From contig NC_003284.9 of NCBI RefSeq assembly GCF_000002985.6, forward strand, positions 1,984,001 through 2,048,000: a stretch of 64,000 nt of DNA. The letters are read 5' to 3'. This DNA comes from Caenorhabditis elegans. Taxonomy: Eukaryota > Nematoda > Chromadorea > Rhabditida > Rhabditidae. Made by a program: the position numbers and the translations under genes. Shown piece by piece: positions 17,355 to 26,794 of this stretch (positions within the stretch are counted from its first letter, which is position 1; the number at the start of each line of letters is the position of its first letter). The notes below the pieces were generated by a model. That model did not search any database. It saw only the letters and a program-made list of their open reading frames with translations, and was not told the origin of the DNA.

Positions 17355-17666
17355 TGTCTCCTCTAACTTAGAATTTTTGCATGACGATGGCTTAAAAAAT
17401 ATAGAAATGAGGTTTAAAAAAGTTGAAAAAACGACCGCCCAATTGCACCTCATCATTTTGTGACATTATTTGTTAAAATCAGTGATCTTTTTGTAATTTA
17501 TGAATTTATCTTGAAAATAACTTCATGCAAAATGTTCTGGAGATTTTAGTTTAAAATTAAATTTTTTGTTTGAAATCCTCGTCTGATGATACGCTTAACA
17601 AAGTGTCTACAGATACCGCTCGCGTGCAACTTTGAATTTTGAATCAATATAATCTTACTTTTTCAG

Positions 17667-18654
17667 ATGAACCAGCACTTGAACAACTGCTCAACAACTG
17701 CGGTCAAACCAAACCTGAAAAATGGTCCTCATTGCAAAAAGGATCTTTCGATTACGCAAACGTGGCTAAAGTTGGAGAAGGTTGCTTCGCTGAAGCATTC
17801 TCAACAACGTTCAAAAATGTATCGGTCGTCGTGAAAGTGCTCCCGTTAAGAGATGGACCAATTGGAAAGGATTGCGATGAATACGTTCAACGAACAGAAG
17901 CAGTGCTGGCAGAATTGATTGTCTTAAAATTGCTGTCTGCGTTGAGTACTAAAAACCGCCCTAACGTCACGGAAAACTTTGTGAAATTGGTTATGACAAA
18001 GGTTGTTGTTGGAAAGTACCCAACATCATTATTGAAAGCTTGGGACAAGTTTCGAGTGGAAGAACAATCTGGGAACATCCGTCCGTCAAAATTCAAGAAA
18101 AATCAATTATACCTGCTTTTGATTATGTCAAACGGTGGAACTCCTCTCGAAAAGTTCGAAATGGACAATATTGGTCAATTCTGCTCAATTATTCAACAAC
18201 TTCTCTTCTCTCTAGCAATTGCCGAAAAGGAAATGCAGTTTGAACATCGTGACCTCCACCTCGGCAATGTTCTTATAAAAAAACAGGTGTGGGAGAGTTG
18301 AATTTCGAAGCCGGATAGATACAGGTTTGTCTGGATTTCGAAAAATTATCAATTTCCTGAACTAAATTGTTTTTTTCTTCAGGCACTCAAATCATTTACG
18401 AGGACATGGAGAAAGACGGAGCAATGTTTGAAGGGTTCGGCGACTCGCAATTCGATGTCTATCGAGAGATGAGAAGCAACTGCAAGTGAGTAATGTTAAA
18501 ATCAAAAAGCGATAAACAGTTAAACCGTCAGGAGAAATTGGCAATTGTTTTCAAGTAAATCGAACATCATGTGGATCAAGTTTATCGCCACCACCATCAT
18601 CAGGAAAAACGTTTCCCCGTCTGCAGAATTCGAATTCTCCGAAAAACAACTTGA
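17667..18654 (+). pseudogene. Haspin-like protein kinase, probably inactivated
   Basis: Three exons of a nematode haspin-family kinase: 17667-18286, 18383-18485, 18532-18654. The first carries a glycine-rich loop (KVGEGCFAEAF), the ATP-binding lysine (VVVKVLPL), a helix-C glutamate region (VLAELIVLKLL) and the catalytic loop HRDLHLGN. The later exons carry the haspin-type tail GDSQFDVYREMR and the SSKSNIMWIKF segment. Between HRDLHLGN and GTQIIYED the metal-binding DFT/DYT segment is missing. That interval holds stops and sequence resembling a degraded version of it, and no donor/acceptor pair restores the phase. A run of seven A at 18277 is a likely frameshift site. The gene ends at a donor at 18655 and meets repeat DNA 30 bp later with no last exon. 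A frameshift from sequencing error cannot be excluded. Confidence 0.65.
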
Positions 18655-18756
18655 GGTTTGCATAAATTTAAAAACCATATATAATCACCAGCCGCTGACC
18701 GCGCCTACGGCGCGGCCAACGACTGGCACCATTAAAAGTATTGACACACATACACT

Positions 18757-19492
18757 TCCAGAATTTTCTCGATTTTTCTAGAAAGTCCTGGAACTTTCCT
18801 GAATTTTCTCGATTTTTCTAGAAAGTTCTGGAACATTCCAGAATTTTCTCGATTTTTCTAGAAAGTTCTGGAACATTCCAGAATTTTCTCGATTTTTCTA
18901 GAAAGTTCTGGAACATTCCAGAATTTTCTCGATTTTTCTAGAAAGTTCTGGAACACTCCAGAATTTTCTCGATTTTTCTAGAAAGTTTTGGAACGTTCCA
19001 GAATTTTCTCGATTTTTCTAGAAAGTTCTGGAACATTCCAGAATTTTCTCGATTTTTCTAGAAAGTTCTGGAACATTCCAGAATTTTCTCGATTTTTCTA
19101 GAAAGTCCTGGAACGTTCCAGAATTTTCTCGATTTTTCTAGAAAGTTCTGGAACATTCCAGAATTTTCTCGATTTTTCTAGAAAGTTCTGGAACATTCCA
19201 GAATTTTCTCGATTTTTCTAGAAAGTTCTGGAACACTCCAGAATTTTCTCGATTTTTCTAGAAAGTTTTGGAACGTTCCAGAATTTTCTCGATTTTTCTA
19301 GAAAGTTCTGGAACATTCCAGAATTTTCTCGATTTTTCTAGAAAGTTCTGGAACATTCCAGAATTTTCTCGATTTTTCTAGAAAGTCCTGGAACGTTCCA
19401 GAATTTTCTCGATTTTTCTAGAAAGTTCTGGAACATTCCAGAATTTTCTCGATTTTTCTAGAAAGTTCTGGAACATTTCAGAATTTTCCCGA
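18757..19492. repeat. 40-bp minisatellite that is a near-continuous heat shock element array
   Basis: About 18 copies of a 40-bp unit. Read in steps of five it is GAATT TTCTC GATTT TTCTA, then GAAAG TTCTG GAACA TTCCA. Seven of eight pentamers per unit follow the alternating GAAnn/TTCnn rule of heat shock elements, and only GATTT breaks it. Over the array this makes roughly 125-130 matching pentamers. HSF trimers bind three or more such units, so the region could hold tens of trimers. Units 5-11 (18941-19220) recur as units 12-18 with the same variant order. Confidence 0.9.
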
Positions 19493-19534
19493 AGTTTCCA
19501 ATTTCCCTTCCAAAGACGGAAAGTCAATTTTTCC

Positions 19535-19980
19535 CAAACTACAGTAATCCTACAGTAATCCTACAGTGCTCCTACAGTACTACTACAGTACCCCGACCAT
19601 GTCCCACTACTAACCCCAAACCTATATCTCTTCAAAAGACAAAAACACAATTTTTCATAAACTACAGTAATCCTACCGTACTCCTACAGTACTCCTACAG
19701 TACCCCGACCATATCCCACTAATAACTCCAAACCTATATCTCTTCAAAAGACAAAAACTCAATTTATCCTAAACTACAGTAATACTACAGTACTCCTACA
19801 GTACCTCTACAGTACTCCTACAGTACTCCGACCATATCCCACTAATAACTCCAAACCTACATCTCTTCAAAAGACAAAAACACCATTTTTCCCAAACTAC
19901 AGTAATCCTACCGTACTCCTACAGTACCCCGCCCATATCCCCCTACTAACCCCAAACTAATATCCCTCCAACAGCCGAAA
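19535..19980. repeat. CTACAGTA-rich tandem repeat
   Basis: About four copies of a roughly 110-130 bp unit. Each unit has a run of TCCTACAGTA words, then CCCGACCATATCCCACTA, then CTCTTCAAAAGACAAAAAC. Similar CTACAGTA words occur in copies B and C of the element. Confidence 0.75.
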
Positions 19981-20040
19981 ACGCCTTGCCTTTGTAAGCT
20001 ATGACGTCACTTCTTAACAAACGGACACTATTTTTTTATA

Positions 20041-20701
20041 TATAGGTAATGATATTTATTTATTTAATTAATATTTATTTATTTAATTAATATTTATTTA
20101 TTTAATTTATATTTATTTATTTATTTAATTAATATTTATTTACTTAATTAATATTTATTTATTTAATTAATATTTATTTATTTACCTAATTAATATTTAT
20201 TTATTTAATTAATATTTATTTATTTATTTAATTAATATTTATTTATTTAATTAATATTTATTTATTTAACTAATATTTATTTATGTATTTAATTAATATT
20301 TATTTATTTATTTCATTAATATTTATTTATTCAATTAATATTTATTTATTTAATTAATATTTATTTATTTACTTAATTAATATTCATTTATTTAATTAAT
20401 ATTTATTTATTTAATTAATATTTATTTATTTATTTAATTAATATTTATTTAAGTAATTAATATTTATTTATTTATTTAATATTTATTTATTTATTTAATA
20501 TTTATTTATTTAATTAATATTTATTTATTTAATTAATATTTATTTATTTATTTAATTAATATTTATTTATTTATTTAATAAATATTTATTTATTTAATTA
20601 ATATTTATTTATTCAATTAATTTTTATTTATTTAATTAATTTTTATTTATTTAATTAATTTTTATTTATTTAATTAATTTTTATTTATTTAATTAATATT
20701 T
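20041..20701. repeat. AT satellite, 19-bp unit
   Basis: Tandem AATATTTATTTATTTAATT units (19 bp, often 23 bp with an extra TTTA). Pure A/T except for rare C or G. The same satellite recurs at 24247-25248, 25497-25545 and 26795-26872. Confidence 0.9.
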
Positions 20702-20949
20702 ACCAGCCGTGGACCGCACCTTCGGCGCGGCCCCCGACTTCTGGGGCTGAAAATTAATTTTTTATGAAACTACCGTAACCCTACAGTATTCCTACCGTAC
20801 CACTATTATACCACTACAGTACCCCTACTATGTCCCTACACTAACCCTAACTCACTATCCCTCCAGAAGCCAAAACTTCACAGACTACAAAGACTACATA
20901 GACTACAAACTATGGACACACAGAATAAGCGCTTTATATATAGTAAATG
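20702..20949. mobile_element. Non-autonomous element copy B
   Basis: About 245 bp: head ACCAGCCGTGGACCGC with a GCACC-TTC-GGCGC-type hairpin, CTACAGTA words, an ACTACA-rich stretch and the tail GCGCTTTATATATAGTAAATG. Nearly identical to copy C. The LINE starts immediately after it. Confidence 0.6.
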
Positions 20950-20950
20950 A

Positions 20951-23900
20951 TGCTCTTTCTGTACTAAGCCTCTTCGTGGCGAAAGGGATCAACAGATAAC
21001 CACTTCAACAAACTCGATGATTTCGTCACATCGAGAGTGGCTTGGTTTGCAACCAAGTGCAAATTATCTGGCCAAGAAGTACACCGTCTCACGCAGGCCA
21101 GAGGTAGTGTCGAATACTCTCTGTCCGGGCGGCTCTAGATTGGCTTAGCAGGCCATTATAGAGTATCTAGAGACACAACTTTTGCTCTAAACAGCAACCC
21201 ATCCTGCCTCAGTCCTCCGCATCCGGCCTCTGCAAAGGGAAAGACAGTTCCTGGAGCACGTCGGAAGAGGCGATCTAATCTCGGAGTCCAAACCATCTGT
21301 CAATCGGACTTGGAAATTAAGAAGCCGCGGGACAAAACAAGAAGAACTGACTATCGCGTGTGCACCTTCAACTGCAGGTCCTTGTCTTCGGATGATCGAC
21401 TTGCTGAGCTGCTAGAAGAGACGAGGCGGATCCAATTCGACGTCATCGGATTGTGTGAAACCAAACGAGCAGCCGAAGCACACTTGATACATCAGGACGG
21501 TACCGGCGTCTTCTTAGGCAAACGGAATGAAAGTTCTGTATCCGGAGGGGTCGGCTTCATAGTTCGAAGCACCCTCCTTCCCAAAATCGTAGAAGTACGA
21601 TTTCTCAGTCACCGCATCGGCTTACTCACCTTCAAAGTGAGCCGAAAATTCAACTGCACGGTGATTCAAGTCTATGCTCCAACTGCGGACTCAGACCTTG
21701 AGGAAATCTGCGACTTCTACGACAGTGTTGAAGACGTCTTCAGAGAGTCCCGAAGCAAGTATAAACTTGTTATCGGCGACTTCAACGCTCGAATGGGATG
21801 CAGACAAAACAACGAAAGGTACATTGGCCCCCATGCCATGGAACCAAGAAATGATACTGGAGAGCTTCTCGCAACATTTTGTGAAACCAACCGTCTGTGG
21901 CACACGAACTCTACGTTCAAAAAGCCTATGCACAAACGGTGGACTTTCGTCAGTCCCGACGGGAATCACAGACACGAAATTGACCACATTCTGGCCAATG
22001 GAAAGTTTGTCACAGATACCACTGTACTCCCCTCTTTCACAAATGGTAGCGACCATAGGTTACTCCGCTGTAACCTCCACTTCAACAATTGCCTAGCAAA
22101 GTTGGAGCAGGTCAGACGGAGAAAACCTCCGAAAAGAGTGTTGGACCCGGCGATTGCTTATGCAATCTCAGCGACAGTCACGGTTCAGAGTGATCCTGAT
22201 TTAGATATCGACTATGATAATCTGATTCAGTCACTAAAAGAACTCCAAGACCAAGCTATCGTTCGACCGGCCAACCACTCATCCAACAGACTTTCGGAGG
22301 AAACCCGAAAACTGCTGAACAAAAGACGTTTTATGGATAGAAATGATCCTCAATTCAAATCTATTTCAGACAAATGTCGTGAAGCAGTCCAGAAAGACCA
22401 TGAAGCTTTTGCCAGTACTCGCCTTCTATCTGCTGCGAACCAGAAAAAGAGTTTGAAAAGAGTTGCTAGGGACATCAACGAATATAAGTCAGCTATCCCA
22501 TGCCTCAAATCAACCTCTACTGGTGAAAGAATCACTTCCAGGGTGAAAATGGAGCAGGAGATTGAGAAGTTCTACACGGAGCTCTTCAAAAGCGCTGTGA
22601 GCAACTCTCAAACATCTTCAATACCCGCCACGGCAACTCCACCGCCGTTTCTCCCGGAAGAAATTCGTCATGTTCTCCGTTCCTTCCCGAATGGTAAAAC
22701 TGCAGGCCAAGACAAAATCAGTGCAGATTTCTTGAAATCTTGCCACGATAACGTCATTGACCTGATAACGGATCGATTCAACAGGTACCTCCACAGCAGA
22801 AATGTACCGAAACCCTGGAAAACCTCCAAAACCACTCTCATCTTCAAGAAAGGTGACCGTGAGAATTTGGAAAACTACAGGCCCATCTGCCTACTACCCG
22901 TACTCTACAAAGTATTCACCAAGTGTTTGCTGAATAGAATGCGAAGATCCCTTGATGAGGCTCAACCTGTCGAGCAGGCCGGATTCCGACGATCTTTCTC
23001 TACGATCGATCACATCCACTCGCTCCAAAGACTTCTTGAAGTCGGCAGGGAATACCAGATCCCACTGACACTTGTCTTCATAGATTTCAAGAAGGCATTT
23101 GACAGTGTTGAACACCAGGCAATCTGGAAAAGTCTCGACGAGCAAGGTGCAGATGGAGCCTATATTGATCTACTGAAAGAGTGTTATAAAAATTGTACCA
23201 CAAATTTTGCCCCATTTCACAGGCCAGTCACAGTACCAGTGACCAAAGGAGTTCGACAAGGAGACCCCATCTCTCCGAATCTCTTCTCCGCTTGCCTCGA
23301 ACACGTTTTCCGAAAGCTTTCCTGGATTGAATTGAAAGGAGAAGCTGAGGATTACGATACGATCCCTGGAATGAGAGTGAATGGCAGAAATCTAACGAAC
23401 CTCAGATTTGCTGACGATATTGTGCTTATCGCCAATCATCCGAATACTGCCAGCAAAATGCTCCAAGAACTCGTACAAAAATGCTCTGAAGTAGGTCTCG
23501 AGATCAATACTGGGAAGACGAAAGTCTTGCGAAACCGATTCGCTGACCCCAGTAAAGTCTACTTCGGTAGCCCTTCCCCCACCACCCAGCTCGACGACGT
23601 CGACGAGTACATCTACCTCGGTCGTCAAATCAACGCCCAAAACAACTTGATGCCGGAAATCCACCGAAGACGTCGAGCAGCCTGGGCTGCATTCAATGGA
23701 ATCAAGAATGCCACCGACTCCATCACCGACAAGAAGATTCGTGCGAATCTGTTCGACTCAATTGTCCTTCCAGCGCTCACCTACGGTTCAGAAGCCTGGA
23801 CATTCACCAAAGCTCTATCCGAACGAGTACGAATCACACATGCCTCCCTAGAAAGACGGCTTGTTGGGATAACACTCACCCAACAACGAGAGCGAGATCT

Positions 23901-24246
23901 CCATCGAGAAGACATCCGAGTGATGTCTCAAGTAAGAGATCCGCTCAACTTCGTGAAAAAGAGGAAGCTAGGATGGGCTGGACATGTTGCGAGAAGAAGA
24001 GACGGAAGATGGATCACGTTGATGACAGAATGGCGCCCATATGGATGGAAAAGGCCTGTTGGAAGGCCGCCGATGCGATGGACTGATTCGCTGCAAAAGG
24101 AGATCACCACTCGTGACGCAGACGGAGAAGTCATCACCCCCTGGTCCACTATAGCCAAGGACCGAAAAGAATGGCTTGCTGTGATCCGCAGGAATACCAC
24201 GAATTCCTGAAGAACGGATCGTCTAAGTATCCTAAGTAAGTAAAGT
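20951..24246 (+). mobile_element. RTE-type non-LTR retrotransposon, about full length
   Basis: About 3.3 kb: a 5' part with no homology to the surrounding satellites, one long endonuclease-reverse transcriptase ORF, a short 3' UTR, and a (TAAG)-like tail (AAGTAAGTAAAGTAAG) instead of poly(A), as in the RTE clade. It sits exactly between element copy B and the AT satellite. No clear target-site duplication could be defined because the flanks are low complexity. Confidence 0.85.
21310..24210 (+). CDS. LINE endonuclease-reverse transcriptase, RTE clade
   Basis: A 966-codon frame for target-primed reverse transcription. Residues 1-260 form an AP-like endonuclease: CTFNCRSL at the start, GLCETK near 48, [10 protein letters not shown] near 155 and GSDHRLLRC near 245. 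The reverse transcriptase follows from about 430: [50 protein letters not shown], and the catalytic [11 protein letters not shown] near 700. A C-terminal region carries [13 protein letters not shown]. There are no stops or frameshifts. The position given starts at a TTG. The frame stays open upstream to at least 21160 without an ATG that I found, so the true start is unclear. Confidence 0.9.
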
Positions 24247-25248
24247 AAGATATTTATTTATTTATTTAATTAATATTTATTTATTTAATTAATATTTATT
24301 TATTTAACTAATATGTATTTATTTATTTAATTAATGTTTATTCATTTAATTAATATTTATTTGTTTAATTAATATTTATTTATTTAATTAATATTTATTT
24401 ATTGATTTAATTAATATTTATTTATTTATTTAATTAATATTTATTTATTTATTTGATTAATATTTATTTATTTAATTAATATTTATTTATTTATTTAATT
24501 AATATTTATTTATTTAATTAATTAATATTTATTTAATTAATATTTATTTATTTAATTAATATATATTTATTTAAATAATATTTATTTATTTAATTAAATG
24601 TTTTTTTATTTATTTAATTAATATTTATTTATTTAACTAATATTTATTTATGTATTTAAATAAAATTTATTATTTATTTAATTAATATTTTTTCATTTAA
24701 TTAATATTTTTTTATTTAATTAATATTTATTTATTTAATTAATATTTATTTATTTAATTAATATGTATTTATTTATTTAATTAGTATTTATTCATTTAAT
24801 TAATATTTATTTATTTAATTAATATTTATTTATTTATTTAATTAATATTTATTTATTCAATTAATATTTATTTATTTAATTAATATTTATTTATTTACTT
24901 AATTAATATTTATTTATTTAATTAATATTTATTTATTTAATTAATATTTATTTATTTATTTAATTAATATTTATTTAAGTAATTAATATTTATTTATTTA
25001 TTTAATATTTATTTATTTAATTAATATTTATTTAAGTAATTAATATTTATTTATTTATTTAATATTTATTTATTTATTTAATATTTATTTATTTAATTAA
25101 TATTTTTTTATTTAATTAATATTTATTTATTTAATTAATATTTTTTTATTTATTTAATAAATATTTATTTATTTATTTAATAAATATTTATTTATTTAAT
25201 TAATTTTTATTTATTTAATTAATTTTTATTTATTTAATTAATATTTAC
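24247..25248. repeat. AT satellite, second block
   Basis: About 1 kb of the same 19/23-bp TATTTATTTAATTAA units, with a terminal part that matches the end of the first block almost word for word before element copy C. Confidence 0.9.
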
Positions 25249-25496
25249 CAGCCGTGGACCGCACCTTCGGCGCGGCCCCCGACTTCTGGGGCTGAAAATT
25301 AGTTTTTTATGAAACTACCGTAACCCTACAGTATTCCTACCGTACCACTATTGTACCACTACAGTACCCCTACTATATCCCTACACTAACCCTAACTCAC
25401 TATCCCTCCAGAAGCCAAAACTTCACAGACTACAAAGACTACATAGACTACAAACTATGGACACACAGAATAAGCGCTTTATATATAGTAAATGAT
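25249..25496. mobile_element. Non-autonomous element copy C
   Basis: Differs from copy B at only a few positions over about 245 bp (for example 20737 versus 25302, both in the GAAAATTA(A/G)TTTTTT word). Same head hairpin, CTACAGTA words and TTTATATATAGTAAATGATG tail. Confidence 0.65.
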
Positions 25497-25545
25497 GATT
25501 TATTTAATTAATATTTATTTATTTATTTAATTAATATTTATTTAT
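25497..25545. repeat. AT satellite, third block (left of mariner)
   Basis: A few 19/23-bp units; the mariner at 25548 is inserted here at a TA. Confidence 0.8.
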
Positions 25546-25547
25546 TA

Positions 25548-26794
25548 GGTTGAGCAAAAAGTCTTTGCAACATTTTGAATTTTTTTTGGAAAGAATATTT
25601 ATTCAAACCTAACAAGATTCAACCGGTAATATATTTACCATTAGTGTCTCTGACTTCTTGCCAACACAACGGAAGTTGAGCAATACTTTCCGCATAGAAC
25701 TCCTGAGATTAGGAGGCAAAGAAGTCGTCCAACCACGTTTCGACGACCCTTCGATCATGAAACTTCTGTCCGGTAGGGCAATTGTGGAGAGAACGGAACA
25801 AATGTTAGTCAGTAGGAGCCAAGCCCGGTGAATACGTTAGGTAAGTCAAAATTTGGATTCCGATTGTCTGGAGCTTCTGGCGGATCTTCAAAGTTTTATG
25901 CGGTCATGCGTTGTCATAGAGCAGAAACAATTTTAATCTTCTTAGGGTGATGTAATCGATGAGCATGGACTACCTTATTCAGTTAAATAGAGTACATGCC
26001 AGCGTTGATTGTAACAAAGTTTGGAAGAAGCTCTCGGAAAATGACACCCGCACTGTCCCACCAAATTGAGAGAAGCACTTTTTCTCGTGAAATTCCCCTT
26101 TGAGGTCAGGTTTCACGGTTTCCTCGACCGGGGCCCACTGTTTCTTTCTGGTACGGTTAACATGCAATACCCATTTATCATCTCCAGTAATAATATCCTT
26201 AATCCAGTCCGTCGTTCGTTTCCTAGAGAGCAGCAAAAGAGAGTGGTCACTACGCAAAATTTTCTGAGAATCGGACAATTGTGAGGAACGAGTTGACCGA
26301 ACTTTGGCTCCCTTCCGGTTTCGTGGAGATGGTTGATGATGGTTCTTTTGAGATGCTTGAGAGTCGCAGAAAGTTCACGTGACGTTGATCTTGCATCATC
26401 TTCCAGGGTTCTCGAAATATCCTCATCGATATCCAAACGAGGGCGACCGTATCTTGGTTTATCATCGGGATCGTAGTTCTTTTTCGTGAACTTTTCAAAT
26501 CAAAACTTTATGATGTTATAGGTGACAGAGTTCTTGACTAACACTGCAAATATGTTACGACGAGCTTCGTTGCACTTGCAGCCTTTGGGGAACTCGTACA
26601 GAAAAACTCCTCGGAGGGCGTGGCGTTTGGCGAGCAAATTCTCGGTTGTTTTGAACAGGACCCAAAAGTTTTTTCAAATGTATTAAACATGTACATTACG
26701 TACTATACAAATAAAAAAACAGAATAGGAAAAAAATGAATTACCGCTGAGAAATGAAGAAAAATACAAATTTTGCAAAGACTTTTTGCTCAACC
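25548..26794 (-). mobile_element. Decayed mariner-family element
   Basis: 1247 bp with 23-bp inverted ends GGTTGAGCAAAAAGTCTTTG at 25548 and the complement ending at 26794. TA is duplicated at 25546-25547 and 26795-26796. The size and ends are typical of mariner. It lies wholly inside the AT satellite. Confidence 0.9.
25640..26690 (-). pseudogene. Mariner transposase relic
   Basis: Minus-strand fragments in several frames: a helix-turn-helix region with DKPRYGRPRLDIDED and SRELSATLKHLKRTI, then DIITGDDKWVLHVN with the first catalytic Asp, then YDNA*PH where the second Asp is expected, and SPGLAPTD near the C-terminus. Several stops and frame changes make it inactive. Confidence 0.85.

Follow-up and report, generated by a model that had tools for sequence, protein, structure and literature searches.

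What is a tandem repeat made almost entirely of alternating TTCnn and GAAnn pentamers, and what could it do where it lies? This question is raised by a 64,000-nucleotide stretch of Caenorhabditis elegans DNA (C6:1984001-2048000, here called the window), in which such an array occupies C6:2002757-2003492. We are highly confident that the array is a satellite of heat shock elements (HSEs) within a non-autonomous HelitronY4_CE-type Helitron, and infer that it could act as a heat-inducible enhancer. Our confidence in the Helitron identity derives from the motif grammar, the termini, the genome-wide copies and an identity of ~95% with a published copy at the gene nhr-247.

Anatomy of the array

Tandem Repeats Finder placed the array at 18756-19492 of the window, with a period of 40 bp, 18.4 copies and 96% matches, but without a defined strand. 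This agrees with the initial annotation, which had described about 18 copies of a 40-bp HSE unit. Read in phase, the unit consensus is GAATT TTCTC GATTT TTCTA GAAAG TTCTG GAACA TTCCA. Seven of its eight five-base steps alternate between TTCnn and GAAnn, as had also been noted, and the exception is the third step, GAT. Across the whole array, exact GAA/TTC alternation holds at 120 of 146 steps, so the earlier estimate of 125-130 pentamers was slightly high. The 26 misses consist of 18 occurrences of GAT at one fixed step and eight others.

When an HSE is defined as the three-pentamer motif NGAANNTTCNNGAAN or its complement and overlapping occurrences are counted, the array holds 68 HSEs, and it thus represents an HSE cluster in the sense of at least three contiguous alternating nGAAn/nTTCn pentamers. 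Dinucleotide shuffling of the array (500 replicates) gave a mean of 0.17 and a maximum of 2, which rules out a chance origin. The whole window contains 70 HSEs, compared with a mean of 2.0 and a maximum of 6 in 30 shuffles.

The units are organised into a higher-order repeat of seven units (280 bp). Mean unit identity peaks at lag 7 (0.989), with the other lags from 1 to 9 giving 0.964-0.972; since units seven apart are most alike, this pattern points to growth of the array by 280-bp blocks. Tandem Repeats Finder also reported a second period of 10 bp with the consensus TTCTAGAATT, and an alignment of the array with its own reverse complement shows 74% identity. The name RcS5, presumably an older one for the repeat family, was not found in the literature looked through.

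The host element and its published relatives

The array lies inside an element of 1,365 bp on the minus strand (18688..20052), whose sharp termini are common to other copies. Its 3′ end, at 18688, reads CTGG and adjoins a GC-rich hairpin (palindrome) on the inner side, and its 5′ end, again on the minus strand, is TC at 20052, where the letters TATATATAGGTAATGA are followed by T. The host bases bordering the element are A at 18687 and T at 20053. Helitrons carry a 3′ CTRR after a hairpin and a 5′ TC end, and they insert between a host A and T. Because the termini of the element match these rules, we regard them as Helitron ends at an A/T target. The initial annotation had suspected a link between HSF-1 sites and Helitrons, and with the termini and the insertion site identified this suspicion is borne out. 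No open reading frame (ORF) of at least 80 amino acids was found inside the window element, from which it follows that it is non-autonomous. Near the 5′ end of the Helitron, 11-bp repeats of the CTACAGTA type are arranged in super-repeats of 101-123 bp (19539..19982, no strand defined), and similar sequence is present in other copies of the element.

The boundaries become visible when copies are compared. A query with the left flank (18480-18780) gave at least 47 matches, with the best 40 of 140 candidates scored. Among the 47 matches listed, 38 start at positions equivalent to 18664-18687 of the window and then run into the element; the remaining nine comprise the window's own sequence, seven short pieces and a single match (74%) to the part outside the element. 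In a line-up of 15 copies (the window and 14 loci), in which one sequence (L015) is diverged and a few rows are offset in the display, the outside sequence differs from copy to copy and is followed by the common ACCAGCCGCTGACCGCGCC... end. A fuzzy search of 20 stretches from other clusters found the 3′ end in 13, the 5′ end in 16 and at least one end in 18; both ends were found in 11, a count by stretch rather than by element. In L009, whose array is 96% identical, the tolerance used brought out neither of the two Helitron ends, and the flank had no match either; an enclosing Helitron is thus not visible around every copy. No Helitron end was found in L017 either, a stretch that represents the interior of a large array.

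The type of Helitron can be assigned by means of a published copy. The accessible part of Garrigues et al. 2019 (PMC6927752) gives primers that bracket a HelitronY4_CE copy inserted upstream of nhr-247. In the genome, the forward primer of this HelitronY4/nhr-247 assay has one match (C5:15320317), and both primers were found in the stretch L020, on either side of an element that shares both of its ends with the window element; by eye, a nuclear-receptor-like (zinc finger) ORF follows ~1 kb beyond it. Window positions 18687-19363 are 95.2% identical to the nhr-247 copy over 682 bp. The two copies thus share the 3′ and 5′ termini, a closely similar 40-bp HSE array (~95% identical) and a similar CTACAGTA region. 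They differ in size (2.1 kb at nhr-247, 1.4 kb in the window) and in a 15-bp CCATCGTGG array, which has 45 exact matches in L020 and none in the window. Moreover, the nhr-247 copy lies upstream of a gene, whereas no recognised gene promoter borders the window copy. The absence of CCATCGTGG is not disqualifying, because the name HelitronY4_CE covers partial copies. Judged by sequence, the window holds a HelitronY4_CE-type copy that is shorter than the one at nhr-247.

Two further papers bear on this assignment, each in the part accessible to us. A 2014 study (PMC4039745) assigned both a 40-mer and the 15-mer CCATCGTGG to HelitronY4_CE; compared by eye, this 40-mer and the reverse-complemented window consensus agree at 38 of 40 letters. 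A 2023 study (PMC9918286) described a 40-nt satellite family, Fam_5_40_94, with one member labelled as part of HelitronY4_CE. In the main text as accessible, the term 'heat shock' does not occur in the former and 'heat' does not occur in the latter.

Copies across the genome

The search of the genome for the 40-bp unit that the initial annotation had proposed was carried out on 100,286,401 bases in seven contigs, a genome in which two genotyping primers published for C. elegans N2 have a single exact match each. With up to two mismatches it returned 445 occurrences (265 forward, 180 reverse), and none for the backward control. A query with the array, for which the best 40 of 290 candidates were scored, gave at least 131 matches on C1-C6; alignments of the array family with its own complement are among them. 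Merged by hand, they form at least 39 clusters including that of the window, and 19 of the 38 others, mostly the higher-scoring ones, were examined as the 20 stretches mentioned above. Exact runs of seven pentamers occur 2038 times in the genome (1000 forward, 1038 reverse), as opposed to 0 for the backward pattern. The GAA/TTC register is kept between copies. The initial annotation had held that a genome-wide satellite with unconserved phase would speak against it; the unit is indeed dispersed, but a satellite with lost register is rejected by these counts.

The length and purity of the array had also been considered exceptional. This view did not survive the comparison: the copy number and the density rank reject a unique array. 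The densest 736 bp of the window hold 69 HSEs, which is rank 11 among 21 sequences (the window and the 20 stretches, picked as best matches) with a top value of 87. The highest number of HSEs among the clusters examined is found at C5:7.913-7.925 Mb (L016-L017, C5:7912900-7925100), with 555 three-pentamer HSEs in 12 kb; an 8-kb part in the opposite orientation accounts for 495 of them. The element also recurs ~55 kb from the window copy, just past the window end (L022, C6:2054500-2063500), with 96.6% identity over 652 bp.

Possible heat response and alternative readings

For C. elegans it is already reported that the HelitronY4_CE-type family scatters HSEs and makes nearby genes heat-inducible. 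According to the accessible part of PMC6927752, 61.4% of genomic HSEs lie within Helitrons, and more than 100 HSEs each are present in eight HelitronY4_CE copies. The nhr-247 copy is reported to have 96 HSEs and to associate with HSF-1 and Pol II, and the heat induction given for nhr-247 is 254-fold in the strain N2 vs 3.2-fold (not significant) in QX1211, which is without this element.

By analogy with its sister, the window copy should also be able to bind HSF-1. Upon heat shock, HSF-1 trimers would occupy the overlapping nGAAnnTTCnnGAAn sites in the array, and the bound HSF-1 would in turn recruit RNA polymerase II. Binding and recruitment together would enable the array to serve a nearby competent promoter as a heat-inducible enhancer. 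As to the element itself, the HSE array may in the past have caused it to mobilise in response to heat; the host, in turn, could gain new heat-responsive genes from the array.

At the window site, no host promoter facing the array was recognised. A haspin-like kinase sequence on the plus strand (17639-18488; Pfam PF12330, E 2.8e-27) points to the array with its 3′ end. By eye, it seems frame-shifted after the HRDLHLGN motif, and it is likely to be a pseudogene, barring an overlooked intron that would account for the change of frame. An RTE-like LINE (20953-24210) encodes an ORF of 966 amino acids with endonuclease and reverse-transcriptase domains. Its conserved 5′ edge at 20953, which is the exact start of eight of its 13 other matches (97-99% identity, at least 748 bases), lies ~1.46 kb from the array, beyond a 248-bp mini-Helitron (20703-20950) located between the two. 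The LINE is possibly within reach of the HSE array, and its family is apparently young given the identity of 97-99% among the 13 other matches. Two copies of an AT-rich ATTTATTTAATTA array plus mini-Helitron flank the LINE (20053-20950 and ~24605-25497); they are 91% identical over 921 bp and look too diverged for a target duplication of a young LINE. A fragment at 25979-26278 on the minus strand shows weak similarity to a transposase of the mariner type (PF01359); the match (E 5e-4) falls short of the curated cut-off.

The strongest alternative to the enhancer reading is compatible with the HelitronY4_CE identity and denies only function and selection. The satellite would have spread neutrally as Helitron cargo, its HSE grammar would have arisen as a side effect when an ancestral palindrome-like unit of 10 bp expanded, and HSF-1 binding at the window copy would have no consequence. 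We consider this quite possible, if somewhat short of an even chance. The 10-bp period and the match of the array to its own reverse complement fit such an origin, as does the lack of a recognised competent host promoter beside the window copy. A comparison of HSE cores with spacers, based on 636 units (193 distinct, at least 29 of 40 letters) from 21 sequences, favours constraint on the cores only weakly. With the degenerate pentamer left out, mean variability is 0.063 in cores vs 0.135 in spacers (permutation p=0.015; loci-weighted p=0.031; p=0.11 when distinct alternative bases are considered), and with this pentamer kept it is 0.084 vs 0.125. On each measure, shifting the labels by one base gives a better separation than the true labels do, and we therefore make no claim of selection on HSE cores. 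On the other hand, the seven-pentamer runs with their kept register argue against mere neutrality, and so does the nhr-247 sister copy, which in the accessible published record accompanies heat induction of its neighbour.

A more far-reaching alternative is that HelitronY4-type arrays jointly titrate HSF-1 and seed nuclear stress granules, which we regard as unlikely. Equally doubtful is the specific proposal that the dispersed arrays, above all the C5 cluster with its large local number of sites, are the DNA scaffold of worm HSF-1 granules. In the accessible part of a review (PMC9737000), worm granules are described as re-forming at similar places, implying a scaffold, and HSF-1 in heat-stressed germ cells as preferring to bind helitrons; the composition of the granules is called largely unknown. 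Against this reading, the window copy accounts for a small share of the sites, and no tie between granules and Helitrons was found in the literature, which for open-licence papers only is a weak absence. The same part of the review states that C. elegans chromosomes are without satellite repeats, which is contradicted by the present arrays and by the accessible part of PMC9918286.

Finally, a chance or assembly artefact has a negligible probability, since the shuffles, the hundreds of unit copies and the common termini all oppose it and the genome-wide copies refute it. The array is real and striking in the raw sequence, yet it is already explained as a HelitronY4_CE-type copy with an HSE satellite. 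Behind the motif array stands a single member of a transposon family whose rewiring of the heat shock response is published and has experimental support. The boldest reading left, by which nuclear organisation of HSF-1 would be a further role of the largest arrays, is a long shot. If the scaffold reading were true, HelitronY4-type arrays would be a transposon-made counterpart of human satellite III. The human repeat unit differs from the worm 40-mer, and satellite III, unlike the worm arrays, is pericentromeric. The likeness, as far as the accessible literature goes, is that of a tandem repeat tied to HSF1 granules (nuclear stress bodies) under heat; this stress-body role belongs to human satellite III, and the worm arrays are only a candidate for it.
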